NCBI RefSeq assembly: GCF_028807635.1
Contig: NZ_JARBAX010000001.1
Span: 3,488,501-3,552,500 of the forward strand
DNA length: 64,000 bases
From: Streptomyces spiramyceticus
GTDB lineage: Bacteria; Actinomycetota; Actinomycetes; Streptomycetales; Streptomycetaceae
Reading direction: 5' to 3'
The notes under the pieces are model-generated. The model was not told where the DNA came from. It was given only the letters and a program-made list of their open reading frames with translations, and did not search any database. A program made the position numbers and the translations under genes. Below, in pieces: positions 26,692 to 42,874 of the stretch. Every line of letters starts with the position of its first letter. Within the stretch, counting starts at the first letter, position 1.

Positions 26692-26736
26692 CAGGTCAGG
26701 CCCGGTCCCCCTGAACGGAAGACCAGGCCTGACCTG
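26692..26736. terminator. Hairpin downstream of the truncated tRNA copy
   Basis: CAGGTCAGGCC (26692-26702) and GGCCTGACCTG (26726-26736) pair perfectly, with an inner GGTC/GACC stem. It corresponds in place to the terminator of the intact tRNA-Pro gene at 38836-38871 and was presumably its original terminator before integration. Confidence 0.75.
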
Positions 26737-26789
26737 GTGTTACAGCTGTCGGGGTGGCGGGATTTGAACCCACGACCTCTTCGTCCCGA
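26726..26789. repeat. Attachment-site repeat, left copy (3' half of tRNA-Pro)
   Basis: This 64-bp segment equals 38865-38928 except at 26742 (A versus T). Positions 26749-26789 are the 3' 41 nt of tRNA-Pro from the anticodon loop to the discriminator; identity stops in the anticodon loop, a usual crossover point for tyrosine recombinases. It is not a functional tRNA because the 5' half is absent. Confidence 0.88.
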
Positions 26790-26940: not shown

Positions 26941-27777
26941 TCAGGCTGCCTTGGGCTGGGAGTCGGCGAGGTCGTTCAGGACCGCGTTGACCACGGGCCA
27001 GCACATGTTCAGTGTGTCGCGGTCCGGGGCGTGAGCCTGGCGGATTTCGGCGCGCGGGTGGACGAAGTTCCGGTACTTGCGTAGCTCGTGGCAGAAGCGC
27101 TCGACGTCGGCGCCGATCCAGCCTGCGTCGTGGCACGTCTTGATCAACGCGTCCAGATGCACGTTGTCCGGGGACCTGTTGCCGAGCAGTGATGCGTCGC
27201 GTTCTTGGACCACATGAACCAGGACGCCTTCGAGGAGGCTGCCGAGCATGATGATGGCGGCCACGTGGGCGCCGTTGGCGTAGCACGTGCGTGCCTCGTC
27301 TAGACGGTGCTGGAGGAGGCCAGCCATCTGCTGGTCGCTGATGAGGTCGGTCATGGCAGCTCTGAGTTCGACCGGGCCCTGGCTGCCCGGGTAGGCGAGA
27401 GAGGGGTCGCAGGCGACGAGGCGGGGGCGTCCACCTGGGTTCTCCAGGCGTACGCCCTCGTGGACAAGGAAGGCGTTGACCGCGGCGACGACGGCGGGCA
27501 GCTGCTCGGGTTCGCCGAAGTATTCGCGCGGGTCGGCGAGTCGGAGCAGGACTTTCTCCAGCTCGGTGGGGTCTTCTCGGCGTTCAGTGAGCCGGGCGAG
27601 GGTCCAGTCCATGCGGTAGCCGTCGTACTCCGGAACCTGCTGCCAGTCGGCGTGCTCCAGGAACTGGGCGATTTCATAGCCCTTTCGGTAGTAGAGGTGG
27701 TCGTCGCCGCAGATGACGCGGGCCAGCTCCTCCAGGGTATTGACGTCCAGGATGCCGAGTGGGGACTGCGGGGTCAT
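26941..27777 (-). CDS. HEPN-like protein coupled to helicase-nuclease
   Basis: The 278-residue protein starts at an ATG that overlaps the helicase stop (ATGA at 27774-27777), so the two are translated together. The N-terminal half (LYYRKGYEIAQFLEHADW...) resembles N-terminal domains of AbiJ-type abortive infection proteins. The C-terminal half is helical with GAHVAAIIMLGSLLEGVLV and ELRKYRNFVHPR at about 231-242; R236 (or R233) with H240 resembles the catalytic R-x(n)-H of HEPN ribonucleases, although the spacing is not the textbook one. It may be a toxin-like RNase or a non-catalytic HEPN adaptor. Both are inferences. Confidence 0.6.
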   Translation of the reverse strand: MTPQSPLGILDVNTLEELARVICGDDHLYYRKGYEIAQFLEHADWQQVPEYDGYRMDWTLARLTERREDPTELEKVLLRLADPREYFGEPEQLPAVVAAVNAFLVHEGVRLENPGGRPRLVACDPSLAYPGSQGPVELRAAMTDLISDQQMAGLLQHRLDEARTCYANGAHVAAIIMLGSLLEGVLVHVVQERDASLLGNRSPDNVHLDALIKTCHDAGWIGADVERFCHELRKYRNFVHPRAEIRQAHAPDRDTLNMCWPVVNAVLNDLADSQPKAA

Positions 27778-30700
27778 GCCGGGCCTTCCGTGCTGTTGAC
27801 GTCGGTTTCGTCGTCTTCGGTCATTTCGAGGGCAGCGACCGGATCGGTCGCGTCTGGGCCATCGGGCGAGTCCGCCAGGCCCTCGTCAGAGGAGAGGTCG
27901 AGCGGGGTCCACTGCACTCCGGCGGACGCGGAGGCCGCATGGGGCCGGTCGTCGGCGCCGTCGAACGTGGCCGGACGGATGCCAAGCCGGTTCAGTTCTT
28001 CCCACAGGCCGGCCAGGGCCTCGTCGGGGTCGAACCGGAACTCGCTTTCGGGGATGCGCCAGAACGTCCAGCCCACCCTCTGCAGTTCGCGATCACGCTG
28101 CTGGTCGTGCCGGATCTGTTCGGATGTCGAGTGGTACCGCTCGCCATCGCACTCCACGGCCAGGCGCCCCCGCGCCCCTACGACGACGAGGTCAATGCGT
28201 TTGCTTCCTGCCGGGCACTGCGGGATGACGTGATACCCGCGGGCTTTCAGACGCAGGTAGACGTGCTGCTCGAAGAGCGATTCGAATGGCTTCTGCGGGA
28301 CCTCGCTCGACACCTCCCCGATGTCGTCGGAGTTGGCCAGTGCGGCTGGTGGGTTCTCCATGTAGGCAAGGAGGTTGAGGCGGAGGTCTCCCGACTTCAG
28401 GCGGTCTGGCGGAACCGAGTAGAAGAGCCGCATCTGGTCCTGGGCTCGGGATGCAGCGACGTTATAAGCCTGTCGCTCGCTGCGTGCGCCACCTGCGATG
28501 CGCGGCGGGTCAGTGGCAACCATCGACAGCAGGATGACGTGCCGCTCGTCGCCCTGGAACGAAGCGGGATTGCCCACCCGGATCTGGTGGCGCTCGCGGA
28601 CCGGCGCCGGAATCCGCTCGTTGATCAGCTGTTCCAGGAACTTGACCTGGCCGATCGGTCCCTGAAGGGTGATGACGCCCATGGTCTTGTCCCGGTAGGC
28701 GGGGTCCTCCACCAGCTGGGCCAGGCAGTCAACGATGGCCTCGGCTTCCTTCGGGTTGCGGAGCCGACTGTCACGTCCCTGGGTGACGGCTCCCTCGACG
28801 AAGTGCGTCACTAGAGGGTCGAGGCGCTCACCGCCGAACTGGCGCAGCGGCTGCAGCTTGTTGTTGTAGAAGGTCTGGGAGGACCAGCCGATGATCTCGG
28901 GCATGCACCGAAAGTGCTCCTCCAGCCGGATCACCTTCGGGAAAAACGTGGAGAGCAGCTGGTAGAGGTTGGTGGCGGGGCCGTAGAGAGTGCGCAGACT
29001 CGGAGGCATGTCCGGCAGGTGGGAGATGAGCCGGTCATGGATCGCCTGGTGACGGCCCATGCCACTGAGCGAGGGCGCGCACTGCTTGTCGTCCCCCACG
29101 ACGATCACGCGAGGAGCGAGCCACATCAGGAACAGCGCGTCCATGCCCGCCTGACTCGCTTCGTCGACGATGACCACGTCGAACGCGTCTCGCTTGGGCG
29201 ACACCATCTCAGCCACCTGCGAGATGGGCATGACCCACGCGGGTACCGCTCCCTGCGCCGTCCTCATGGCGTCGTGCGCCGCGGCACGGTAACGGCCCGC
29301 GCTCCGGCCCTTGCCTTTGCCGTACGAGGCCATGTGGGTGCGGTATGCCTGGAGTGCGGACCGCTGCTCCTGTGTCATGCGCTCCAGGCAGTGCAGCCGA
29401 CCCCAGGTGGCGGCGAGTTCACCGGTCAGAGTCTCCAGGTTCCTCTCGCATTGGGCGAGTTCGCCTTCAAGCTGACGCTCACGGCCCGGGGTGCGCTGGC
29501 GGCGTACAAATGCGGAAGCCATTGCCCAGGCCCACGCCTCGGCCAGTGAGTCCAGCCGCGCCTCCCATGCCGGATCGTCGGGTTCCTGCGTCAGCTGGTC
29601 GGCGAGCAAGGGGTGTGCCCTCCGAACGCTGTCCAGAAGCACGGCGCACCGGCGCCGGCGGTGCTCACGCCGATGTGCTTCCCGCAGTGCCTCGAGCTCC
29701 TTGGCGTAGCGGTCGATGTCTTCCTCTCGGACGGCCTGGGCGGCGGCCAGCGCTTCGGCGGCGGGGTGAGAACCTTCCACCGGCGTACGGAGGTGCTCCT
29801 CCCATGTGGCCAGCTGGGCCATGGCTTCATCGGCCGCCCGCTGACCGGAGAGGGCAGCCAGGGCCGTGGTGAAGTCCTGCCAGGCCGGGCGGGAAGTGAA
29901 GGCGATGTGCAGGCCGTGACGTACGAGCAGTTCGTCGATGCGCTCGCGGAAGGCGCCAAACGCGTCGACGTGCTCCAGGCGTGCGTATGCCTCGGTCAGG
30001 GAGGCTAGACGGAGTTCCACCGGGCCTTCGGATATGGGGACTCCGGCCTGGGCCCACCGCTCTGCGAGCGTGGCAACGGAGGAGCGGGCGCGCAGGTGGG
30101 CGAGGACGGAGTCGAGATCCTCCAGTGTTTCGGGAGAGCGACCGTTTACGGTGCACGTGTCGAGGAGCTCCTGAGCGGCCTTCTGCGCCTTCGCGGCACG
30201 GAAGCTGCCGCGAGCCCGCAGCTTGCCACCCGAGGCGAGGTGGTCGCGCAGTGCAGAGCCGGTCGCGAGCATCGCATCGGCCCGCTCGGCGGAGAGTTGC
30301 TCGGGCACGATGACGCGTTTCATCCCCTGCTTGTCCAACTGGTCAGAGACAGCGGTGAGTTGATCAGCGAGTCGGGATACGCGACGCCATAAGGCGAGGT
30401 TGTCGCGGGAGAGCCGGTCCGAGAGGGCCTTGGTGGTCCACCTGTCGGTATCCCACTGCCTGGCCCACGGTGGCAGACCGAGGTGGTGCAGGGCCGTACG
30501 GCAGTCACCCGCGAGCGAGGTCAGTTCATCGGTGACGGAAGCGTCGAGTTGGGCGAGGTGGCCGCGAATGCCAGCCGCTTCGGGGGAAAGGCCGTCATCG
30601 GTGACGCGGCCGGCCGCGAGTGCCTGGGCCAGGTCATTGGGGGAGGGGAGGGTGTCCGGATCCGGCAGAGTGCCGCCCGCGCGTGGCTCAGCCGCGCCGT

Positions 30701-32411
30701 CGCGCAGCAGGCTCAGCAGTTCTGCTGCCTGCGCGGGGGACAGCGGGGGAACGGATGGGGTCGGCCCCTCATCCGGAACCAGGCCGATCCAGGAGTGACG
30801 TTCGGCGTTGTCGCGGACGCACTGCACGATTGCGGCGAGTGTGCCGGCGTATCCGGGGGCGATTTCCCGGTGCCGGTAGACCTCAGCCTCCCGTAGCGCG
30901 ATCACCTGCTCGGTGAGCGTGCCGATCCTTCCTCGCACCTCTTCCCGGCGTGCGGAGAGCTGACGGATCTCGTCCCGAAGCTGCTCGGGGTCGCTGGCGG
31001 CGACCTGGTCGGTCAGGGCATTGATCGTGCGTTCCAGTTCGTCCGTCCCGTCCTGCCGTGCGGAGCTGAGAAGGAGGACGCACAAGTCCCTCACCGCAGG
31101 CGGAAGCTTGTCCCGCAGGACCGTCAGGGCCTGATCGCGGGCGCTGGTCACCAGGACCCTCTGCCCCTGGGCGAGTAGTGCGGAGACCAGGTTGGCGATC
31201 GTATGTGTCTTGCCGGTACCCGGCGGGCCTTGCACCACCACGCCCGTGTCGTGCTCCAGCCGCCGCAGTACACTCCGCTGCCGTTCGTTGGCCTTCCCCG
31301 GGAAGAGCGGGTCGTCCCCGAAGAGGGGCGGGATCTCACGACCGTCCCAGTTCGTGCGCTCCTCGGAGCTCAGGGGCAGTACCAACTGAGCGAGCCCCAG
31401 GGGCGCGTGCGCCTCGGAGGCCACGCTGTCCGCGATCCGGTCGTAGAAGCCCAGCAGGGCATTGCGGTCCCGTGGACGCACCACCAGCGCAGGAGCGTAA
31501 GTGAGCCGTGCGACTGCCTCCGGCTCGCGTGGCGGCTGCCACTCGGCACTGAACGCCACCGGGCGCTGCAGCACTCGCTCTTGCCACTGGGCCAGCTGCT
31601 CCAGGGCCTCCGCTCCAAGCAGGTGCAGCGACTGGGCGGCTATCTCCTCCGCAAGCGCGGCCGAGCGCTCGGGAGCCCAGCCGTCATCGGTGTCGAGGAA
31701 CGCCTGATCCTCAAGCCGCACCGCCCCCTCGGCCATGAGGCGGACCGTGAGCCGGGCGGTCTTGCGGTCCACCGAGGTCTCCACCCGGTGGGTGAGCAGA
31801 TGGCGGTGGACGGCGTCACCGCGCGGATCGCTCCACGTCAACAGGCCGGTGACCAAGACGAGTTCGAGCTGGTCGTCCTGCTGGGTCAGCTTCTGGTGCC
31901 AGTGGTAGACCTGCTCGTACAGCTCCCGAAGGGCTCGCTCCGCACGCTCCCGCTCCGCCCACCGGCGCCAGCGATCGAGCCACGGACCGTAGACCCGCAG
32001 CACTTCGGCCGCATCCTCTCGGCGGACGGTGTGATCCTCCGCCTCCTCCAACCACTGGCGGCCATCCGCGGCTCGCATCAGCTCCCGCCCCGGTCCCTCG
32101 ATTGCGAGCGGCGGATCACCGCCATCCGCATCCTGGCACCGTTCCGCGGATACCCATCCATCCAGCACATCCGGCAGAGGCGGCGGTGCCGTTTGCGGCA
32201 CGTGGTCGAGCGTGAGCAGTAGACCGTCGACTCGGTCCGACGGGCGCCGTACGGAGGTGGGCAGGTCAGCCAGCCACAGGCGTTCCCGCGAGCGTCGGTC
32301 GTCGCGTAGACGGTTGTGGCTGCTCTGTACGACCTCTTTGAGGAAGCCAATCAGACCGGTGGTCTGTCCAATGACGTCAGGGTCGTTCGCGGCGCGTCGC
32401 GGCACGTTCAC
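27774..32411 (-). CDS. Superfamily 1 helicase with C-terminal Vsr/DUF559-type nuclease
   Basis: I start it at the GTG at 32411 (GAGGGAAG upstream), giving 1,545 residues; an open frame continues to 32621 but overlaps the divergent promoter. An N-terminal region of about 350 residues is of unknown fold. Walker A GPPGTGKT lies at 395-402, Walker B VIVDEAS at about 1080, then GDDKQCAPS, ITLQGPIGQV, ASFQGDERHVI and NVAASRAQ. The roughly 680 residues between the Walker motifs hold a large helical insert. The C-terminus (about 1365-1480) is a PD-(D/E)xK nuclease of the Vsr/DUF559 type: FEQHVYLRLKARGY, RIDLVVVG, AVECDGERYHS and WTFWRIPESEF. The layout matches UPF1-like helicase-nucleases in predicted anti-phage systems. 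Confidence 0.85.
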   Translation of the reverse strand: MNVPRRAANDPDVIGQTTGLIGFLKEVVQSSHNRLRDDRRSRERLWLADLPTSVRRPSDRVDGLLLTLDHVPQTAPPPLPDVLDGWVSAERCQDADGGDPPLAIEGPGRELMRAADGRQWLEEAEDHTVRREDAAEVLRVYGPWLDRWRRWAERERAERALRELYEQVYHWHQKLTQQDDQLELVLVTGLLTWSDPRGDAVHRHLLTHRVETSVDRKTARLTVRLMAEGAVRLEDQAFLDTDDGWAPERSAALAEEIAAQSLHLLGAEALEQLAQWQERVLQRPVAFSAEWQPPREPEAVARLTYAPALVVRPRDRNALLGFYDRIADSVASEAHAPLGLAQLVLPLSSEERTNWDGREIPPLFGDDPLFPGKANERQRSVLRRLEHDTGVVVQGPPGTGKTHTIANLVSALLAQGQRVLVTSARDQALTVLRDKLPPAVRDLCVLLLSSARQDGTDELERTINALTDQVAASDPEQLRDEIRQLSARREEVRGRIGTLTEQVIALREAEVYRHREIAPGYAGTLAAIVQCVRDNAERHSWIGLVPDEGPTPSVPPLSPAQAAELLSLLRDGAAEPRAGGTLPDPDTLPSPNDLAQALAAGRVTDDGLSPEAAGIRGHLAQLDASVTDELTSLAGDCRTALHHLGLPPWARQWDTDRWTTKALSDRLSRDNLALWRRVSRLADQLTAVSDQLDKQGMKRVIVPEQLSAERADAMLATGSALRDHLASGGKLRARGSFRAAKAQKAAQELLDTCTVNGRSPETLEDLDSVLAHLRARSSVATLAERWAQAGVPISEGPVELRLASLTEAYARLEHVDAFGAFRERIDELLVRHGLHIAFTSRPAWQDFTTALAALSGQRAADEAMAQLATWEEHLRTPVEGSHPAAEALAAAQAVREEDIDRYAKELEALREAHRREHRRRRCAVLLDSVRRAHPLLADQLTQEPDDPAWEARLDSLAEAWAWAMASAFVRRQRTPGRERQLEGELAQCERNLETLTGELAATWGRLHCLERMTQEQRSALQAYRTHMASYGKGKGRSAGRYRAAAHDAMRTAQGAVPAWVMPISQVAEMVSPKRDAFDVVIVDEASQAGMDALFLMWLAPRVIVVGDDKQCAPSLSGMGRHQAIHDRLISHLPDMPPSLRTLYGPATNLYQLLSTFFPKVIRLEEHFRCMPEIIGWSSQTFYNNKLQPLRQFGGERLDPLVTHFVEGAVTQGRDSRLRNPKEAEAIVDCLAQLVEDPAYRDKTMGVITLQGPIGQVKFLEQLINERIPAPVRERHQIRVGNPASFQGDERHVILLSMVATDPPRIAGGARSERQAYNVAASRAQDQMRLFYSVPPDRLKSGDLRLNLLAYMENPPAALANSDDIGEVSSEVPQKPFESLFEQHVYLRLKARGYHVIPQCPAGSKRIDLVVVGARGRLAVECDGERYHSTSEQIRHDQQRDRELQRVGWTFWRIPESEFRFDPDEALAGLWEELNRLGIRPATFDGADDRPHAASASAGVQWTPLDLSSDEGLADSPDGPDATDPVAALEMTEDDETDVNSTEGPA

Positions 32412-32700
32412 CTGTCTTCCCTCGGCTGGTGGCGAACGTTCCAGAATGAGGCCGCCCGACAGGCGGGACAACACGTGCACCGAGAATGGCGCGATATACG
32501 CGCTGTTCAGGCTGGATCGACGTGCTGTCACGAAGAGCGCGTCGGTAAGCGACGTGAACACTCGGCCGGGCAGGAACGAGGTCGGCATCCACCGGTGCTC
32601 GTACCGCCGGAGAACAGACATCAGCCACTGGCCGATCTGTGCCCTTACCGATGTCCGTGGGCGCTGCCGAGACTGCTACTCAAGACAGGGGGAGGCGTGG

Positions 32701-33402
32701 GTGGCAGCACGAAAACGACGTCGATCGGCTGCGCGGAAGCGCCGCGAGCAGCGGCTCAAGACGGGCTTGATCGGCGGTGTGGGCTGCGTCGTCCTGCTGG
32801 TCGTGTTCTGGCAGGCGATCTGGCCGTACCTCGTCGGCGGGCTCGTTCTCGGTGGAGCTGCCACTGGCGCGTGGTGGCTGTGGCGTACGAACCGACTGAT
32901 CAAGGGACGTGATCATCGGTGGCGCCGGGAGGAGGCTCTCAAGGCCGGCCACCGAACCCTCACCGAGGTGGATGCGATGTCGGGTGGCGAGTTCGAGGAC
33001 TTCGTCGTGGACCTCTGCCGACGCGATGGATGCACCGAAGTTCGCCGGGTGGGTGGCTCTCACGACGATGGCGCGGATGTGTTGGGGCGTCTGCCGGACG
33101 GCCGGAGCATGGTGATTCAGTGCAAGCGTTACTCACCGAAGAGCAGGATCCCAAGCCATGAGGTCCGAGACCTGCTGGGGTCGAGGGTTCACTTCAGGGC
33201 CGATGTCGCGATCTTCGTTACGACCACGTACTTCACCGGACCATCTGAGCGGACCGCAGTGCAGAACGGCGTCATCGCGGTCCACCGCGACCATCTCGGT
33301 TTGTGGAACAACGGCGCCTCGCTCCTGTCGCTCAGCGAGGTGAACGGGTCGGGGCAGGGTGAGCGCAGGCATCGCGCCCGCTGGAAGCAGACATACGAGT
33401 AG
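32701..33402 (+). CDS. Membrane-anchored Mrr-type restriction endonuclease-like protein
   Basis: The GTG at 32701 follows GGGGGAGG and gives 233 residues. A very basic N-terminus (VAARKRRRSAARKRREQRLK) precedes two membrane helices (about 22-43 and 44-61). The C-terminal domain is Mrr/DUF2034-like: E97 in GGEFEDFV, D126 in HDDGADVLG, and Q140-K142 in MVIQCKRYSPKS, the D...QxK active site of Mrr-type nucleases. It diverges from the helicase operon across 289 bp. A membrane-bound nuclease would suit attack on entering DNA (inference). Confidence 0.85.
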   Translation: MAARKRRRSAARKRREQRLKTGLIGGVGCVVLLVVFWQAIWPYLVGGLVLGGAATGAWWLWRTNRLIKGRDHRWRREEALKAGHRTLTEVDAMSGGEFEDFVVDLCRRDGCTEVRRVGGSHDDGADVLGRLPDGRSMVIQCKRYSPKSRIPSHEVRDLLGSRVHFRADVAIFVTTTYFTGPSERTAVQNGVIAVHRDHLGLWNNGASLLSLSEVNGSGQGERRHRARWKQTYE

Positions 33403-33642: not shown

Positions 33643-33904
33643 CCGTAGATCATGTTCGCGTACCGTGCATGTCCTCCCCATGGCGCAGAACACTGCCGAC
33701 ACGCTGCATACGCTCGCCTGCGACTACCTGCCCGACGAGATCGCCGAGCGGTGGATCGGACTGCTGCGGCCGGGGCCTGCGCCTGGTGAAGGCTACGGGT
33801 ACAGATCCAATCGTGGGTCGGCCTGCCGGAGGTTCCGCAGAGGAAGCTGCGCGGCGCATTCCGCCAACTTCTACGGGCAGTGGTACGGAACCAGCCCACT
33901 GTCG

Positions 33905-34213
33905 CGGAGAGGAGGAGGACGGCGTCGGCCGCGCGAGGCCGGTGGGAGTGACGTCGACTCGCTCGAGGTCCGCCAGGCCGTCGGCGCGAGGGTGAGCGTC
34001 GTCGCTGACGTGGGGGTCGGCCGCCTGGACCTCCGCGCCCATGCCGATGAGCAGCTCCGCGATCCGCGCCGCCGGCGTCTCGCGGGCGTCTCCGGTGTTG
34101 GCCTTGTAGGCGAGGCCGAGCAGCAGTATCCGGGAGCCGTTCACGGACTTCTTGCGTTTGTTGAGCCCGTCGACCAGGCGCCGGACCACGTAGTCAGGCA
34201 TGTGGTTGTCGTC
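33905..34213 (-). pseudogene. Fragment of UDP-N-acetylmannosamine/UDP-glucose dehydrogenase
   Basis: The translation HMPDYVVRRLVDGLNKRKKS then RILLLGLAYKANTGDARETP and ARIAELLIGMGAEVQAADPH is the C-terminal domain of nucleotide-sugar dehydrogenases. The N-terminal NAD and catalytic domains are missing. Near 33930 the frame shifts: the family pattern LARADAVVLL continues in another frame as ADAVLLLSATVGWF, which points to a one-base loss. The rest is lost. It is a decayed remnant, perhaps of an earlier polysaccharide locus. Confidence 0.75.
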
Positions 34214-34313
34214 TGGGTGATGCGGGCAGCGTCCGTGCTCCAAACCGTAAGCTGCGACTCGCATATGTCACGGGGCATGCAACCGGCAGGCAGTGTGCGC
34301 TTGTGTACCAGGC

Positions 34314-35348
34314 ATGAATCGGAATCTCGCTGGCCCCACAGGTGCCCCTAACCCCAACATGAACGAGCGCACAGTCGAGTTGTGGCGCAAGCGGCGGGTA
34401 CGGAGGCGCTTGACCCACGTACTGGGGGCGCTTGGGTGTCTGATTCTGCTGATCGGAATCCCATGGCTCGTATGGCGCGGACCGTACATACTCGACGGCG
34501 AATACCTGGACCGGGATGAGCTGGCGAAGGGATCAGCGGCGCTCGTCACTGGCCTGCGTAGCGCTCTAGTCTCCATGCTTACCGCGATCGGGGTCGGCGT
34601 TGCCCTGATATACACCGCCCGCACTTATCGCCTCACACGGCGCGGTCAGATCACTGACCGATTCAACAAGGCGCTGGAATGCCTCGGATCCGAGCACGAA
34701 TACGTGCGCATCGGCGGCGTCCTCAACCTGGAGCAGATCGTTCAGGATGCCCCGGAGCAAGCAGCCCCGGACGCCGCCCGCGTCCTCGTGCATTTCATCC
34801 GCAACCGCGCGCCGAAGGCACAACACTCTCGCCGCAAGTGGATGGCGCGCATGCGCAGCGGGGACAACACCTCACTGCCACTCGAACCTGCAGCCGACGT
34901 ACAGGCTGCCCTCACGGCCCTCACCAGCGATGTGATGCGCCTTCACGCCGATCCGCGTGTGGTCGTCCTCGACCTTCACGGACTACACCTGGCGGGATCC
35001 ACGTTGCCCGGTGTCGACCTCACCGATACGCACCTGGAAGGTGTCGACCTTACCGGCGCGGATCTGAACGGCGCGACGCTGGCGATGGCCAACCTGAACG
35101 CAGTGCGGCTCACCTCTGCCAACCTGATTGATGTAGATCTGACCTATGCGGGGCTGGAACAAGCCGATCTTCGAGGAGCAGATCTCCGACTCGCGAAATG
35201 GGACAAGACCGACCTGCGCGGGGCTAACCTTTCGGACGCCAGCGGCCTGCCTGCGAACCTTCATGAGCTCGCGCGCATCGATGACCGGACTGCACTTCCG
35301 GGATATCTTCGGTCCCCGAAAGGAGCCCGAGGAGCAGTGCGCCGCTGA
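34314..35348 (+). CDS. Membrane protein with pentapeptide repeats
   Basis: Starting at the ATG at 34314 gives 344 residues; GTG 34293 and an internal ATG (MNERTVELW) are alternatives and none has a good ribosome binding site. Two membrane helices (LGALGCLILLIGIPWLVW and ALVSMLTAIGVGVALIYTA) are followed by a helical region (RFNKALECLGSEHEYVRIGG) and about 20 pentapeptide repeats of the A(D/N)LXX type, for example GVDLTGADLNGATLAMANL. This architecture is common in Streptomyces accessory DNA. The pentapeptide helix probably mediates protein interaction; function unknown. Confidence 0.8.
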   Translation: MNRNLAGPTGAPNPNMNERTVELWRKRRVRRRLTHVLGALGCLILLIGIPWLVWRGPYILDGEYLDRDELAKGSAALVTGLRSALVSMLTAIGVGVALIYTARTYRLTRRGQITDRFNKALECLGSEHEYVRIGGVLNLEQIVQDAPEQAAPDAARVLVHFIRNRAPKAQHSRRKWMARMRSGDNTSLPLEPAADVQAALTALTSDVMRLHADPRVVVLDLHGLHLAGSTLPGVDLTDTHLEGVDLTGADLNGATLAMANLNAVRLTSANLIDVDLTYAGLEQADLRGADLRLAKWDKTDLRGANLSDASGLPANLHELARIDDRTALPGYLRSPKGARGAVRR

Positions 35349-35563: not shown

Positions 35564-35601
35564 CGGGAGCCGATTCTGTAGTCGGCTCCCAAATGGCTCC
35601 C
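35564..35601. repeat. Hairpin repeat, left copy
   Basis: GGGAGCCGA/TCGGCTCCC forms a perfect 9-bp stem (35564-35589) and is followed by AAATGGCTCCCA. The 21-mer at 35581-35601 recurs exactly at 38795-38815. The copies are in the same orientation, 3.2 kb apart. Confidence 0.8.
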
Positions 35602-35639
35602 ACAACATCGTAATGAGCCCAGCTGATGGCACCCTCGTC

Positions 35640-36259: not shown

Positions 36260-37102
36260 ATGGAGACCGGGGAACGCTGGGCGTATCGGGCCACACCGAA
36301 GGAGCTGGGTGGCGCGGTGCGCCAGGTGGAGATTGTCCGGGTCCGCGGCTCTGGAAGATCAGGGCGCGTACATGTGCGGTTCCTGGATGGTGATGAGGCT
36401 GGCTTGCAGGAGTGGGTGAGCCCCACCTGCCTGGTGGCCTCGTGGAGTGACGTCGAGTCCTTCAGGGCGGATGACACGGCGGAGCTGGCTCTGGCCGAGG
36501 CGTCGAGGGAGGTCCGGGGCAGCGCGGAGTTCGAGGCGGCCCGGATGATCCTCGGTTTCGTCCGGCCCAAGGGCCGCTTGCGTCTGCGCAGAGCGGTGGC
36601 TGACGCGGGGGTCCTGGAACTGGGCCACCTCGACGAGACGGCACCGCTCGTCGGCGCGGATCCCGCCGGACTACGGGGCGATCCCATGGTCCACGAGGAC
36701 CGCAACGGCCTCTGCACGGCGGGCTGGCCGGTCACCGAGCGGATCGCACGGCAGGTTGCCCGGCGCCTGGCCGAGGAGATCCTGCCCGAGGTAGACCGCA
36801 AGCAGCAGGCAGTGGACGAGGAGCGCGCCCGGCCCGCCTACTACTCGTACCACCGTCGGGACGACCGCAAGCTGGAAGCGGAGGCAGCCGCCTTGCGCAC
36901 GGTGCGGGAGTGGTGCGGTGAGGACAAGACGGAGCGCTATGACGAGCTGGTCGCCCTACGCGCCGAGGTGCTGAGACTTGGAGAACTGGTGGAACGGGCA
37001 GTGAAAGCGCTCCGGGACCGGGGACATGGCGTCATCGCCTCCACCATTGAGCGCGACCTTGGCGTCCATATCGCCAGCCTTGATCCTGACGTACGTCGAT
37101 GA
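36260..37102 (+). CDS. Unknown protein, actinobacterial accessory type
   Basis: From the ATG at 36260 it has 280 residues; a GTG at 36227 is an alternative. The N-terminal 65 residues are beta-rich (GERWAYRATPKELGGAVRQV ... RVHVRFLDGDEAGLQEWVSP), like a small SH3/PWWP-type barrel. The remainder is helical, ending in a coiled coil (ELVALRAEVLRLGELVERAV). I recall related GERWAYRA... proteins in Streptomyces islands, but no function is known to me. Its last 71 nt overlap the convergent gene. Confidence 0.7.
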   Translation: METGERWAYRATPKELGGAVRQVEIVRVRGSGRSGRVHVRFLDGDEAGLQEWVSPTCLVASWSDVESFRADDTAELALAEASREVRGSAEFEAARMILGFVRPKGRLRLRRAVADAGVLELGHLDETAPLVGADPAGLRGDPMVHEDRNGLCTAGWPVTERIARQVARRLAEEILPEVDRKQQAVDEERARPAYYSYHRRDDRKLEAEAAALRTVREWCGEDKTERYDELVALRAEVLRLGELVERAVKALRDRGHGVIASTIERDLGVHIASLDPDVRR

Positions 37103-38660
37103 TGCCTCGCCACGGCTCTGGCTCCGGCTTGGGCGGCGCGGGCTGCGTCACTGGTTTCTCCTTCTCCGGTCGGTGTGGGTGCCAGCCGTCGAGAAACGGC
37201 CGCAGCTGATCTCCCGTCGGCTCCGCGTGGAAGTTGAGGGAAGCCAGGCCCTTGCCGTTCAGGGTGGGGTCGAGCCGGTCGGCCTCCGCCTTCCCCCAAG
37301 CCGACCACTCCCGCAGCCTCTCGGCTTCGATGGCGTTGTCCGACGTGGTGGCGGCGTCATCCAGAGCGGCGCAGAAGGCTCGGATTTCCCCGGCGGCCCG
37401 CCACCGCTCAAGGGCCGTTCCGAAGTGCTCGGCCCGACCCGCCTGAACTGCCTTGATCGAAGCGACGCTGACGACCGCCTCCCACTCCCGCCGCGTGCGC
37501 TCTTCCCGTTCCGCTTCCAGGCGCTGGCGCTCTGCCTCCTGCCGCTCCTCTCGCAGACGCTGCTGCTCCGCCTCACGTTCCAGTCGAGCCCGCTCCTGCT
37601 CCTCCGCGCGTGTCTTCAACGCCCGGAAGACTGAACCGATCTGCTCCTCCAACGGCTTCTTGGCCGTGTCGGCCCATTCCTTCTTCCAGCCGTAGCTGTA
37701 GCCCGATTGCTGGCTGACCAGCAGCTCCAGTTCGCCGGACGGCTCGAACTTCTGGGTTGGGGTGACACGTTGCCAGTCGTACGTACGGCGGCCCGGCTGC
37801 TTGGGGACGTACCGAACCGGTTTCTGCCGTTCGCGGAAGATGACCTCGTACGTCCTGCCGTGGACGGTGAGCAGCGGCCTCGGCTGTCTGCGCTTCTTCG
37901 ACACCGCGATCTCGCCGTGGCGTGCGAGGGCTTGCTCAGCGAGGAGCCGGAGCAGGGAGAGTACCCGGGGGAGGACCTGCTCCGAGATCTCGAAGGCGCT
38001 GTAGTCCGCGGTGACTGCGGCGATCACGTCCTCGACATCGGTGATCACACGGCTGCGCGCCAGCCGGACTCGGTTCCACTCGGTCTCGTCCTCGCCGGTC
38101 ACCCTGAGCAGGCCGAGGAAGAAGTCCCCCTTCGCCCGCCCGCTGTACTTCAGGTGGTATCCCTCGGGGGCACACTGCCGCGCAGCGTCGAACGCCCTGC
38201 GGTAGCGCGCCCGCTCCCCGTCGCTGGGGTTCGGGATCCGGAGGAACCGCCCAGCCTGCCGTACCTCCGCGATCAAAGCGGCGCCGACTTCCGCAGGCGA
38301 CGGCCGCGGGGACTTCGCTGCACGCTGCGGCGCTGGCTCCGTCTCGGCCGAGGCCATGGCTTGCTCCTGTGGTGGAGGGACCGGTCGTGCCTTTGGCTCA
38401 GAAACCCTCGAACGTCGCTTGCGCGGAGCCGGTTCCGGCCGGTCTGGATGATGGCCGTGCTCCAGGTAGTAGCGTCCCGTGTCGGTAATCTCCGTCTGCC
38501 ACTTCCCACCCTGCTTGGGCATGGTGATCAGGCCCCGCCCCTTGAGCGCGCGGGCGGTAACGGCGAGCTCGGGGCTGTCCGACGTGACGGGATCGGTTCC
38601 GTCTCCGATACGGGTGAGGAGGGCGAGCTGCCGATCATTTAACGGAGACCATGGGTGCAT
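37032..38660 (-). CDS. Large unknown coiled-coil protein of the island
   Basis: I start it at MHPWSPLNDRQLALLTRIGD (ATG 38660), giving 542 residues; the open frame runs to 38834 into the tRNA flank. The N-terminus resembles a winged helix (LTRIGDGTDPVTS...ALKGRGLITM). A middle region (YEVIFRERQKPVRYVPKQPG) is rich in strands. A long charged coiled coil covers about 345-400 (EREAEQQRLREERQEAERQR). The DNA end overlaps the convergent gene by 71 nt. No catalytic motif is evident. Confidence 0.68.
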   Translation of the reverse strand: MHPWSPLNDRQLALLTRIGDGTDPVTSDSPELAVTARALKGRGLITMPKQGGKWQTEITDTGRYYLEHGHHPDRPEPAPRKRRSRVSEPKARPVPPPQEQAMASAETEPAPQRAAKSPRPSPAEVGAALIAEVRQAGRFLRIPNPSDGERARYRRAFDAARQCAPEGYHLKYSGRAKGDFFLGLLRVTGEDETEWNRVRLARSRVITDVEDVIAAVTADYSAFEISEQVLPRVLSLLRLLAEQALARHGEIAVSKKRRQPRPLLTVHGRTYEVIFRERQKPVRYVPKQPGRRTYDWQRVTPTQKFEPSGELELLVSQQSGYSYGWKKEWADTAKKPLEEQIGSVFRALKTRAEEQERARLEREAEQQRLREERQEAERQRLEAEREERTRREWEAVVSVASIKAVQAGRAEHFGTALERWRAAGEIRAFCAALDDAATTSDNAIEAERLREWSAWGKAEADRLDPTLNGKGLASLNFHAEPTGDQLRPFLDGWHPHRPEKEKPVTQPAPPKPEPEPWRGIIDVRQDQGWRYGRQGRAQWWRR

Positions 38661-38776
38661 GGCTGTCGTCGTACCGTCTGTGGTCTCCTCGGCACAAGCC
38701 GTGGGGGTGGCTCTTCCGGGGCGCACGCGGCGCACAGCGCGCTCGAAGGCGGAGCGCCGCTCGCTGGGAGCCACCG

Positions 38777-38815
38777 GGGAGCCGGTTCTCGAAGTCGGCT
38801 CCCAAATGGCTCCCA
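38777..38815. repeat. Hairpin repeat, right copy
   Basis: GGGAGCCGG and TCGGCTCCC (38777-38785, 38795-38803) form a 9-bp stem with one G-T pair, followed by AAATGGCTCCCA. The 21-mer at 38795-38815 is identical to 35581-35601. It sits 21 bp before the tRNA-Pro terminator. Confidence 0.8.
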
Positions 38816-38835
38816 AAACGGGTCCGCATAGCAAA

Positions 38836-38871
38836 TCAGGCCCGGTACTGATCTCTCAGTACCGGGCCTGA
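38836..38871. terminator. Terminator of tRNA-Pro
   Basis: TCAGGCCCGGTACTGA and its perfect complement form a 16-bp stem with a 4-nt loop, 17 bp beyond the 3' end of the tRNA gene. Confidence 0.9.
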
Positions 38872-38928
38872 CCTGGTGTTTCAGCTGTCGGGGTGGCGGG
38901 ATTTGAACCCACGACCTCTTCGTCCCGA
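38865..38928. repeat. Attachment-site repeat, right copy (inside tRNA-Pro)
   Basis: The segment matches 26726-26789 in 63 of 64 positions. It runs from the terminator arm through the 3' half of the tRNA and ends in the anticodon loop. With the left copy it defines the island ends. Confidence 0.88.
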
Positions 38929-38961
38929 ACGAAGCGCGCTGCCAAGCTGCGCTACACCCCG
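38888..38961 (-). tRNA. tRNA-Pro(CGG)
   Basis: The 74-nt minus-strand gene folds as a cloverleaf: acceptor CGGGGTG/CACCCCG, D arm TAGCGCAGCTTGGCAGCGC, anticodon stem CTTCG/CGAAG with loop TTCGGGA (anticodon CGG, plus-strand 38925-38927), T arm GTGGGTTCAAATCCCGC and discriminator A. CCA is not encoded. It decodes CCG proline codons. It is the integration site of the island and is kept intact by it. Confidence 0.95.
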
Positions 38962-40537: not shown

Positions 40538-40570
40538 TCACGGCAGCGGCAGCGCAGCGGTAGTAGGAGT

Positions 40571-40635
40571 ACGCAGTAGGTACGCGAAAGGGGCCCGGTG
40601 GAATCCACCGGGCCCCTTTCGCGTACCTACTGCGT
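40571..40635. terminator. Very long perfect bidirectional terminator
   Basis: A perfect 32-bp inverted repeat (40571-40602 with 40604-40635) has a single central A. The arms include TACGCGAAAGGGGCCCGGTG. It separates convergent yqeY and the penicillin-binding protein, whose stop codon is 2 bp away. Confidence 0.93.
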
Positions 40636-40636
40636 C

Positions 40637-42874
40637 CTACGGCCAGTTCCCGCCGTTGTCGTTCCCGCCGCGGCCGTGGCCGTTGCCGCCGCCGATCAGA
40701 TCCGGCGGGATGGAGATGTCGGGCCAGGGCTTGTCGCCACCGTCGCCGGGCTTGCCGTCGTCGCGGCCGTCGTCGTCGCGGTCTTTGTCCTTGTCCTTGT
40801 TCTTGTCCTTGTCGGGCTCCGGAATGTTGACCGTGTTGAAGCCGGGCGCGGGTTTGCCGGCCAGCGCGCCGCTCATCGCGTCCTTCCAGATCGGACCCGG
40901 GACCTGACCGCCGAACACCTTGTCGTGGTAGACCCCGCCGATCGTGATGTTCACCATGGGGATCTGCTTGGCGCCGGCCGCGCCCACCCAGACCGCGCCG
41001 GCCAGGTTCGGCGTGTAGCCGACGAACCAGGCGTTGTGGCGGCTGTCCGTGGTACCCGTCTTACCCGCGTTGTCCCGGCTCGTGAGTCCCGCCTGCCGGC
41101 CCGTACCGGAGTCGACCACGCCCTTGAGCAGGGTGTTTATGGTGTCCGCCGTCTCCTCGGACATCGCCCGCGAGCAGGTCGACCGGGGTACCGGCAGGTT
41201 CTTGCCCTGTGCGGTCTTCACCGACTCCAGGAAGATCGGCGTGCAGTACGTGCCGCGGTTGGCGAAGGTCGCGTACGCGTTCGCCATGGTCAGCGGCGAC
41301 ATGCCCTCCGTACCCAGCGAGATCGCGGGCACTTCCTTCAGCTTCTCGCCGTTGGCCTGCACCACACCGAGCTTGCCTGCCATCTGCGTCACCGGGCAGA
41401 TGCCGATCTCGGAGATCATCTGGACGAAGTAGGTGTTGACCGACTTCGCCATGGCCTCCTTCATCCGGTACGGGCCGACCTCGGCCTCGTTCTCGTTCTC
41501 GACCTGGTCGCCGCCGGAGTTGACCCAGGGCTTGTCACAGGTCTGTACGGGGCTCGGGTACGGCATGTCGTACGGCGCCGGATAGCTCTTGGTCGCCGGA
41601 ATGCCGGACTCTATGGCCGCCGCCGCCACGAACGGCTTGAAGGTCGATCCGGTCGGGAAGCCGTAGGCCGAGCCGCCCCTGTTCTTGTCGGCCGAGAAGT
41701 TGATCACCGTCTCGTTGGTCCCGAAGCCGTAGGGCCTGGACTGGCCCATGCCGAGGACCTTGCCGGTGCCGGGCTCGACCAGCGTGACGGCCGTCGCGAT
41801 CTTGTCGGACTGGTAGACGTGGTTCTTGATCGACGCCTGCACCGACTCCTGCGCCTGCGGGTCGAGCGTCGTACGGATCTTCAGGCCGCCCTGATTCCAG
41901 ATCTTGGCCCGGTCCTCCTTCGTCTTCCCGAAGGCCGGGTCGGCGTGGAAGACCTCGCGCACGTAGTCGCAGAAGAAGCCCGCGCCGCTGACCGCCGTAA
42001 TGCAGCCGTTCTTCGGCTTGCTGACGTTCAGCTTGATCGGGGTGGCCTTCGCCCGGTCGGCAGCGGCCTGCGAGACGTCGCGGACGTCGGCCATGCGCTG
42101 GAGCACGGTGTTGCGCCGCTTGGTCGCCTCTTCGGCGTCGTTGACGGGGTCGTAGCGGCTCGGCGACTGCACGATGCCGGCGAGCAGCGCGGCCTCCTCC
42201 AGCTTGAGGTCCTTGGCGGACTTGCTGAAGTAGCGCTTGGACGCGGACTCGATGCCGTACGCCTGCTGCCCGAAGAAGGTGATGTTGAGGTAGTTCTCAA
42301 GGATTTTCTTCTTGCCCAGCTCTTCCTCGACCTGGATCGCGTACTTGAGTTCGCGCACCTTGCGGCCGAGCGTCTGCTGGGTGGCCTGGGCGACCTTGGT
42401 GGGGTCGTCGCCGGCCTCCTCGACGAAGACGTTCTTGACGTACTGCTGGGTGAGGGTCGACGCGCCCTGCGACACGCCGCCCGACTGGGCGTTGCGGTTG
42501 ACCGCGCGCAGCACACCCTTGAGGTCGATCGCCCCGTGGTCGTAGAAGCGCGCGTCCTCGATCGCGACGATCGCCTTCTGCATATGGGGGGAGATGTCCT
42601 TCAGGTCCACGACGGTGCGGTCACGCGAGTAGACCGTGGCGATTTGGCCGCCCTGCGCGTCCAGGATCGTGGTGCGCTGACTCAGCGGTGGCGTCTTGAG
42701 GTTGGCGGGGATCTCGTCGAATCCCTCGACCGTTCCCTTGGCCGCGAGACCCAGCGCTCCGGCCGCCGGCAGTGCGATGCCAGCCAGCACGGCTCCGGAC
42801 AGCGCGGCGACACCGACGAATTTGGCGGCCTGCTGGGTCCCCGTGAGACCCCCGCCCGAGCGCTTCTTTGGCAT
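40637..42874 (-). CDS. Bifunctional penicillin-binding protein (transglycosylase/transpeptidase)
   Basis: This class A PBP polymerises and cross-links peptidoglycan outside the membrane. The 745 residues start MPKKRSGGGLTGTQQ, with one membrane helix (FVGVAALSGAVLAGIALPAA). The GT51 domain shows AIEDARFYDHGAIDLKGVLR and GASTLTQQYVKN; the transpeptidase domain has GSTFKPF (SxxK), SVN and GKTGTT. The C-terminus is a Gly/Asp/Lys-rich tail (DKDKNKDKDKDRDDDGRDDG). A promoter is visible at 42908-42937. Confidence 0.95.
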   Translation of the reverse strand: MPKKRSGGGLTGTQQAAKFVGVAALSGAVLAGIALPAAGALGLAAKGTVEGFDEIPANLKTPPLSQRTTILDAQGGQIATVYSRDRTVVDLKDISPHMQKAIVAIEDARFYDHGAIDLKGVLRAVNRNAQSGGVSQGASTLTQQYVKNVFVEEAGDDPTKVAQATQQTLGRKVRELKYAIQVEEELGKKKILENYLNITFFGQQAYGIESASKRYFSKSAKDLKLEEAALLAGIVQSPSRYDPVNDAEEATKRRNTVLQRMADVRDVSQAAADRAKATPIKLNVSKPKNGCITAVSGAGFFCDYVREVFHADPAFGKTKEDRAKIWNQGGLKIRTTLDPQAQESVQASIKNHVYQSDKIATAVTLVEPGTGKVLGMGQSRPYGFGTNETVINFSADKNRGGSAYGFPTGSTFKPFVAAAAIESGIPATKSYPAPYDMPYPSPVQTCDKPWVNSGGDQVENENEAEVGPYRMKEAMAKSVNTYFVQMISEIGICPVTQMAGKLGVVQANGEKLKEVPAISLGTEGMSPLTMANAYATFANRGTYCTPIFLESVKTAQGKNLPVPRSTCSRAMSEETADTINTLLKGVVDSGTGRQAGLTSRDNAGKTGTTDSRHNAWFVGYTPNLAGAVWVGAAGAKQIPMVNITIGGVYHDKVFGGQVPGPIWKDAMSGALAGKPAPGFNTVNIPEPDKDKNKDKDKDRDDDGRDDGKPGDGGDKPWPDISIPPDLIGGGNGHGRGGNDNGGNWP

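Follow-up and report, generated by a model that had tools for sequence, protein, structure and literature searches.

What is the role of a very large helicase gene that overlaps a gene for a HEPN-like protein in Streptomyces spiramyceticus? The two genes lie in a 64,000-nucleotide stretch of contig NZ_JARBAX010000001.1 (positions 3,488,501 to 3,552,500), hereafter the window, and had been flagged by a sequence-only reading as a candidate phage defence system. Our analysis makes it likely that they form a two-gene operon acting against mobile elements, above all phages: a UPF1-type helicase would load on foreign or replication-associated nucleic acid, its MTES_1575 nuclease would cut, and the coupled HEPN protein would be a second effector, probably an abortive one, which cuts RNA and halts growth of the cell.

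The larger gene encodes a 1545-residue protein with AAA_11, AAA_12 and MTES_1575 domains (Pfam), that is, a UPF1-type superfamily 1 (SF1) helicase with a Vsr-like nuclease at its C-terminus. An AlphaFold2 model was made of residues 346-1545 (pLDDT 77.8, pTM 0.57; the first 345 residues are outside it). The top Foldseek chains for this model include Senataxin, IGHMBP2, Dna2 and Upf1 (E 5e-8 to 1e-6) and therefore place the helicase in the UPF1 type; a sequence profile search agrees. The sequence-only reading had described helicase motifs spread along the chain, and they are indeed far apart, with Walker A at residues 395-402 and motifs II-VI at 1083-1326. The intervening helical insert, put earlier at roughly 680 residues, is modelled at about 600 (about 455-1055). 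Motifs I-VI are invariant in an alignment of 21 sequences (the window's and 20 homologues, 45-91% identity). The nuclease tail that had been read from the letters is also there: PF18741 matches residues 1380-1473 at 102.3 bits (gathering score 38.2), and the domain models as alpha-beta3-alpha-beta-alpha. It has the catalytic D...ExD pattern (D1407, E1420, D1422), these three residues and H1427 being invariant in 21/21 sequences. By contrast, the N-terminal region (residues 1-385) had been taken for an extra part, and it is conserved among homologues and not an addition; a Pfam scan gave no domain in it. The source genome (7.08 Mb, 2 contigs) has one copy of the helicase.

The partner is a 278-residue protein whose C-terminal half models as a HEPN fold, so that the coupling to a HEPN-like gene through an ATGA overlap stands as first described. 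DUF4145 (PF13643) scores 22.7 bits against it, below the gathering score of 23.1. Across the family, 20 of 26 members match DUF4145 at E <= 1 (best 6.7e-6), and beyond that domain the Pfam scan of the 26 gave four single weak rows only. Comparison of the partner profile with the sequences of solved structures gave one weak FEN-1 row. Among 161 partners the residues R236 (159), E183 (159), N237 (157), H240 (157) and R233 (150) are conserved. The N-terminal domain searched alone gave 73 matches of 195-307 residues, a size range favoured by the length filter of the search.

Do the two genes stay together in other genomes? Starting from the partner, we surveyed 199 genomes of the genus and 394 of the class. 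Matches occur in 17 of the former (14 genomes with 15 full-length loci, and three with fragments of 36-47 residues only) and in seven of the latter (the source genome, four more with full-length and two with partial matches). A helicase of the MTES_1575 type lies directly upstream, on the same strand, of all 19 full-length partner loci, the window's included, and the MTES_1575 domain is above the Pfam cut-off in all eight pair genomes re-checked, which include the five that have a second type of helicase (see below). Measured to the nearest start codon, the gap between the genes is -4, -1 or +1 nucleotides in 18 of 22 loci (18 of the 19 full-length loci, the window left out, plus four named loci found via the helicase). 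As to the remainder, L003 and L133 change to +1 with the gene caller's start, L001 has -14 and L144 has +58. No helicase was found beside the five partial matches, in stretches of 20 kb for three of them and about 3 kb for two. Starting instead from the helicase, 11 of the 199 same-genus genomes have the window's type, each of them together with the partner (Fisher p 1e-15), whereas the partner is found in one of 12 genomes with the longer group-b helicases, behind that genome's own window-type copy. Compared with three relatives, the helicase gives dN/dS values of 0.13-0.15 (for two of them the comparison begins at a later start) and the partner values of 0.08-0.15. Of the 12 window-type loci in the same-genus survey, four have a broken helicase. 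Further MTES_1575 matches were seen in the pair-holding genomes G439 (C388, C199, C187) and G176 (C5), so several such systems may coexist in one genome.

The partner also occurs on four Streptomyces plasmid records, directly behind the helicase in the three inspected (H1, H3, H4). On one Streptomyces plasmid record the pair stands beside TIGR02678-TIGR02680 genes, which we take to be Wadjet-like. Six other plasmid records match the partner weakly, and none of the three inspected has such a helicase. A search of IMG/VR returned 17 pattern stretches, none related to the pair, and a partner search of phage records gave no match. Neighbours of the pair in other genomes include, among the matches listed, JetC, Avs3a, SduA, DpdE/ZorD and Mrr-type proteins. 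In a PADLOC neighbour test the count was 111/114 called genes around 11 of 17 regions against 111/186 control genes, the families listed being the best 25 of 49 and the best 25 of 90. The control matches carry names such as GajB, RTasHel and PD-T4-6 and may, in our judgement, be housekeeping helicases and kinases; the enrichment is suggestive only.

Table 1. Features of the helicase-HEPN locus and its island (positions in the window)
Feature	Position	Strand	Basis or remark
Helicase-nuclease gene	27774..32411	-	1545 aa, GTG start; UPF1-type SF1 helicase with C-terminal MTES_1575 nuclease
Helicase N-terminal region, aa 1-385	31257..32411	-	Conserved among homologues; model covers aa 346-385 only
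Motif I (Walker A), GPPGTGKT, aa 395-402	31206..31229	-	Alignment
Helical insert, about 600 residues, aa ~455-1055, between motifs I and II	29247..31049	-	AlphaFold2 model
Motifs II to VI, aa 1083-1326	28434..29165	-	Pfam and alignment
MTES_1575 Vsr-like PD-(D/E)xK nuclease domain, aa 1380-1473	27993..28274	-	Pfam and model
ATGA overlap, helicase stop and partner start	27774..27777	-	Open reading frame (ORF) coordinates
Partner gene, 278 aa, N-terminal domain and HEPN (DUF4145-like) domain	26941..27777	-	ORF, Pfam, model
Partner N-terminal domain, aa 1-142, mostly helical	27352..27777	-	Model; pLDDT about 90 up to aa ~120
HEPN motif R233-K-Y-R236-N-F-V-H240	27058..27081	-	Sequence and alignment
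Left 68-bp direct repeat, attachment-site-like	26722..26789	.	Repeat search
Right 68-bp direct repeat, 97% identical, covers 3' end of tRNA-Pro	38861..38928	.	Repeat search
tRNA-Pro (CGG), probable integration site	38887..38961	-	tRNA prediction
Divergent Mrr_cat endonuclease, N-terminal hydrophobic segments by eye	32680..33402	+	Pfam; loosely associated neighbour

The repeats are 12,139 bp apart and both genes lie between them, in a 12.1-kb tRNA-borne island, a location that counts in favour of the sequence-only reading. Genes past the right repeat look like core chromosome (metallophosphoesterase and onward), and in the relative G018 the two flanks are about 3.5 kb apart as against about 14 kb in the window, as expected without the island. 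For the close homologues, neither of the outcomes that the sequence-only reading had named as telling against it (homologues outside accessory DNA and without HEPN, or no nuclease fold) was seen; the defence function that it proposed is one we infer. None of the nine tyrosine-integrase matches in the genome falls inside the island (serine recombinases being outside that search), and for this reason the island may be non-autonomous or decayed. The divergent Mrr_cat gene was considered as a core component and rejected, its cluster spanning 3 of 32 regions compared, window included; it is probably not a core part of the pair.

Several other features of the island were noted. The tRNA-Pro(CGG) locus (38861-38961), next to the metallophosphoesterase gene, looks like an integration hotspot: the relatives G005, G006, G007, G009, G015 and G016 have second att-like copies at distances from the tRNA of about 1.6 to 51 kb. 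A fragment of a UDP-glucose/GDP-mannose dehydrogenase (part of the UDP-binding domain, 33650-34264) is probably a remnant, and the protein encoded at 34293-35348 has pentapeptide repeats as well as hydrophobic segments near its N-terminus. A 27-bp direct repeat (96%; 35580-35606 and 38793-38819, the latter near the right end) is possibly a recombinase or replication site. The large charged ORF adjoining the tRNA (37032-38834) has the place expected of an integrase; a Pfam scan gave no match. Beyond the island, a near-perfect 35-nucleotide inverted repeat with a 1-nucleotide loop (40568-40638), between convergent genes, is possibly a terminator.

How does the HEPN partner fit the history of the helicase? 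The tree of the C-terminal helicase-nuclease part has 105 rows; eight loci with no long enough match are outside it (L052, L056, L059, L062, L068, L072, L108, L124), and L120 and L123, pieces of one broken gene, are both rows. The helicase cores of L122, a same-genus locus, and L026 of S. diastatochromogenes are identical, which together with the names of homologues agrees with Streptomyces as the genus. The HEPN-partner label changes three times on this tree and falls in two distant clades. Clade A, the window's type, has 19 rows, 18 of them with the partner (two of these being pieces of one gene). The sole exception, L012 of Actinoplanes liguriensis, has its helicase split over two frames, and in the partner's slot is a 292-residue protein with a DpnII-MboI restriction endonuclease domain (2e-35), joined by the same kind of ATGA overlap; L012 and L007 are attached by long branches. 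Clade B, which is PDC-S37/Hhe-like, has five rows, including the three same-genus helicases L136-L138, a count biased by the entry of L136-L138, L144 and L145 through the partner query. L136 and L138 score 825 and 873 bits with PDC-S37 and about 420 bits each with Hhe, and L138 carries DUF4011 (1e-8).

The clade neighbouring A has six rows, none with a HEPN partner of this family (the contig of L008 ends about 350 bases on). Two have a C-terminal module, namely an Lsr2 DNA-binding tail in L002 and a winged-helix-like extension in L004 (weak Pfam rows); the remaining four lack both partner and module, their extensions being 3-19 residues long. By eye, the tail of L227 is Lsr2-like and that of L229 resembles the one of L004. 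L002 and L227 have the Lsr2 tail in place of the HEPN partner. Could HEPN be fused to the longer group-b helicases (frames of 1744-2149 residues)? This was rejected, since the best of 19 C-terminal extensions reached E 0.03 (L004) against the partner profile. A Pfam scan of ten extensions gave GreA/GreB-type domains in five (two above cut-off), DUF3320 in two (one above, one weak), and in the rest weak winged helix-turn-helix (wHTH)-like or arginase domains or nothing clear. The GreA/GreB C-terminal domain is matched by four scanned group-b or related Streptomyces tails, two of them above cut-off; on the long extensions it is above cut-off in L109 and L026 and below it in L110, L113 and L017. 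Frames of the Actinoplanes group run into an arginase domain in L042 (Pfam 1e-31), and L077 has a very similar tail by eye.

These arrangements raise a wider idea, which we hold tentatively and think rather more apt to be wrong than right: that the MTES_1575 helicase of UPF1 type serves defence as a chassis, whose C-terminal end offers a slot where effector or aiming modules can be exchanged. In trans this slot would take either a HEPN RNase from a coupled gene (in two distant clades) or a nuclease of the DpnII-MboI type; in cis it would take Lsr2 (for foreign AT-rich DNA), a winged-helix module or a GreA/GreB module (the last for RNA polymerase), so that swapping a single module would re-aim or re-arm the sensor engine; HEPN in trans would then be a distinct, unnamed two-gene type. 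Because four of the six rows nearest to clade A have neither partner nor module, a strict slot rule is weakened and we lowered our estimate slightly. A full-length partner-like protein with both domains is also encoded in a Prevotella stretch (L219, 7989-10306), followed by a caspase-like ORF (by eye); no such helicase lies beside it, and the two-domain HEPN protein is therefore portable in itself. This stretch looks by eye like a conjugative element. In a Paraburkholderia plasmid stretch (L220, 7563-16163) an integrase, a HEPN-like protein, a PIN-domain gene and Qat genes occur together.

Two observations weigh against the proposed anti-mobile-element role of the pair. For the Rx4-6H motif the partner can be read as R236-x3-H240 or as R233-x6-H240; the spacing R-N-x-V-H is an odd one, and because the motif is unusual its RNase activity is only predicted. 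Further, a wider draw of helicase loci had the partner in 4 of 80, the other 76 being without this partner family, the one HEPN family sought beside them. The earlier idea that homologues keep the HEPN partner is supported when one starts from full-length partners and is not supported for helicases at large. Both observations suit a reading in which the helicase-nuclease is by itself a restriction-like defence and the HEPN-like protein is catalytically dead, a structural or RNA-binding subunit; so does the DpnII-MboI-fold protein that stands in its place in one relative. The near-invariance of R236, N237, H240 and E183 among partners, and the retention of R, N, V and H by all five partners of the second helicase clade, make this improbable.

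Might the pair instead resemble a toxin-antitoxin module, in which HEPN is the toxin, the helicase mainly guards it or serves as antitoxin, the island is thereby maintained in the population, and phage resistance is secondary? The genes overlap or touch, full-length partners are always paired in both surveys, and the island has att-like repeats and the integrase result given above. An ATPase-nuclease of 1545 residues with conserved catalytic residues nevertheless far exceeds what an antitoxin needs, the 76 helicase loci lack such a partner, and all five partial partner matches are without helicase, though these fragments are likely dead; we regard the module as an unlikely explanation. The nearest solved folds, and the GreA/GreB C-terminal domains or Lsr2 tail on relatives, bring to mind a Sen1/Senataxin-like factor for transcription or R-loop quality control, not primarily immune, that would cut RNA or DNA where RNA polymerase runs into conflicts, the HEPN subunit trimming RNA. 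Such a function sits poorly with a distribution as patchy as 11 of 199 genomes of the genus, with the tRNA island and with a restriction-type fold in the slot of one relative, and we give it little credence.

If the pair is an anti-mobile-element operon, how might it work? UPF1-type helicases travel along single strands. The helicase could take hold of foreign DNA, or of intermediates in its replication or transcription, for the DNase tail to cut. The HEPN protein, in complex with the helicase, would be held inactive by it until this engagement activates it, whereupon RNA would be cut and growth of the infected cell would stop. Two-step logic of this kind is part of the prediction made for one-chain HEPN-SF-I helicase-Vsr proteins in excerpts of PMC3710099. 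Were the proposal true, Streptomyces and relatives would have a conserved two-gene defence type that lacks a name in the libraries used, and the predicted one-chain proteins would be linked to an arrangement in which the RNase is a separate protein. The trigger passing from helicase to RNase would become testable with separable proteins, and nature would already have supplied, with the DpnII-MboI-type protein in one relative's slot, an experiment on what an effector receives from the helicase.

Is the pair a form of a system that already has a name? We read the name Hhe as HEPN-helicase-Vsr, with HEPN presumably on the same polypeptide. The window protein shares with Hhe the UPF1-type SF1 helicase and the MTES_1575/Vsr nuclease, and the Hhe model aligns through the nuclease region. 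It scores 122.4 bits with NCBIfam NF042953, against a curated cut-off of 2000. DUF4011 (PF13195), which the NCBIfam name contains, has no match in it at E <= 0.1, while the same library does match L138; its HEPN domain resembles DUF4145 and is encoded by a gene of its own. Membership of Hhe was accordingly rejected, and the suggestion that the pair is a split Hhe is not borne out. The best PADLOC match of the helicase is PDC-S37 (PDLC05009; 178.5 bits), whose best stretch (profile 636-1341 of 1550) runs from mid-insert to nuclease; the high-scoring L136 and L138 have a homologous HEPN partner. That stretch is about half of the model, and the window helicase differs in the missing DUF4011 match; the name PDC-S37 occurs in no open-licence PubMed Central (PMC) text. 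ProA (NF058533) was rejected on score (180.7 bits, curated cut-off 1500; best stretch 752-1562 of the 1615-residue reading), and no paper on a ProA protein of this kind was among the matches listed from the open-licence PMC texts.

Excerpts of PMC10925250 assign the Hhe helicase to UPF1-type SF1 and likewise that of Mokosh; MkoA/MkoC match ours at 83-122 bits (PADLOC), with a best stretch in the helicase core only (about 1142-1398). Hachiman HamAB, in the same excerpts, is a functional analogue with a helicase sensor and a separate nuclease effector in two genes, but its helicase is SF2 Ski2-type and its nuclease another, and no homology is claimed. No description of the helicase-HEPN pair was found in the open-licence PMC texts searched, including excerpts of PMC3710099, PMC10250203 and PMC10925250. 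Closest in composition are the one-chain HEPN/SF-I helicase/Vsr (MTES_1575) proteins predicted as defence in the excerpts of PMC3710099, with which our pair shares nuclease family, SF-I helicase, linked HEPN and absence of a methylase. As described there, those are single polypeptides with SWT1/Abi2-family HEPN and a wHTH, whereas ours has two genes, a DUF4145-like HEPN and no wHTH tail seen. We class the pair with the MTES_1575-helicase defence candidates, as a version in two genes whose DUF4145-like HEPN is supplied in trans.

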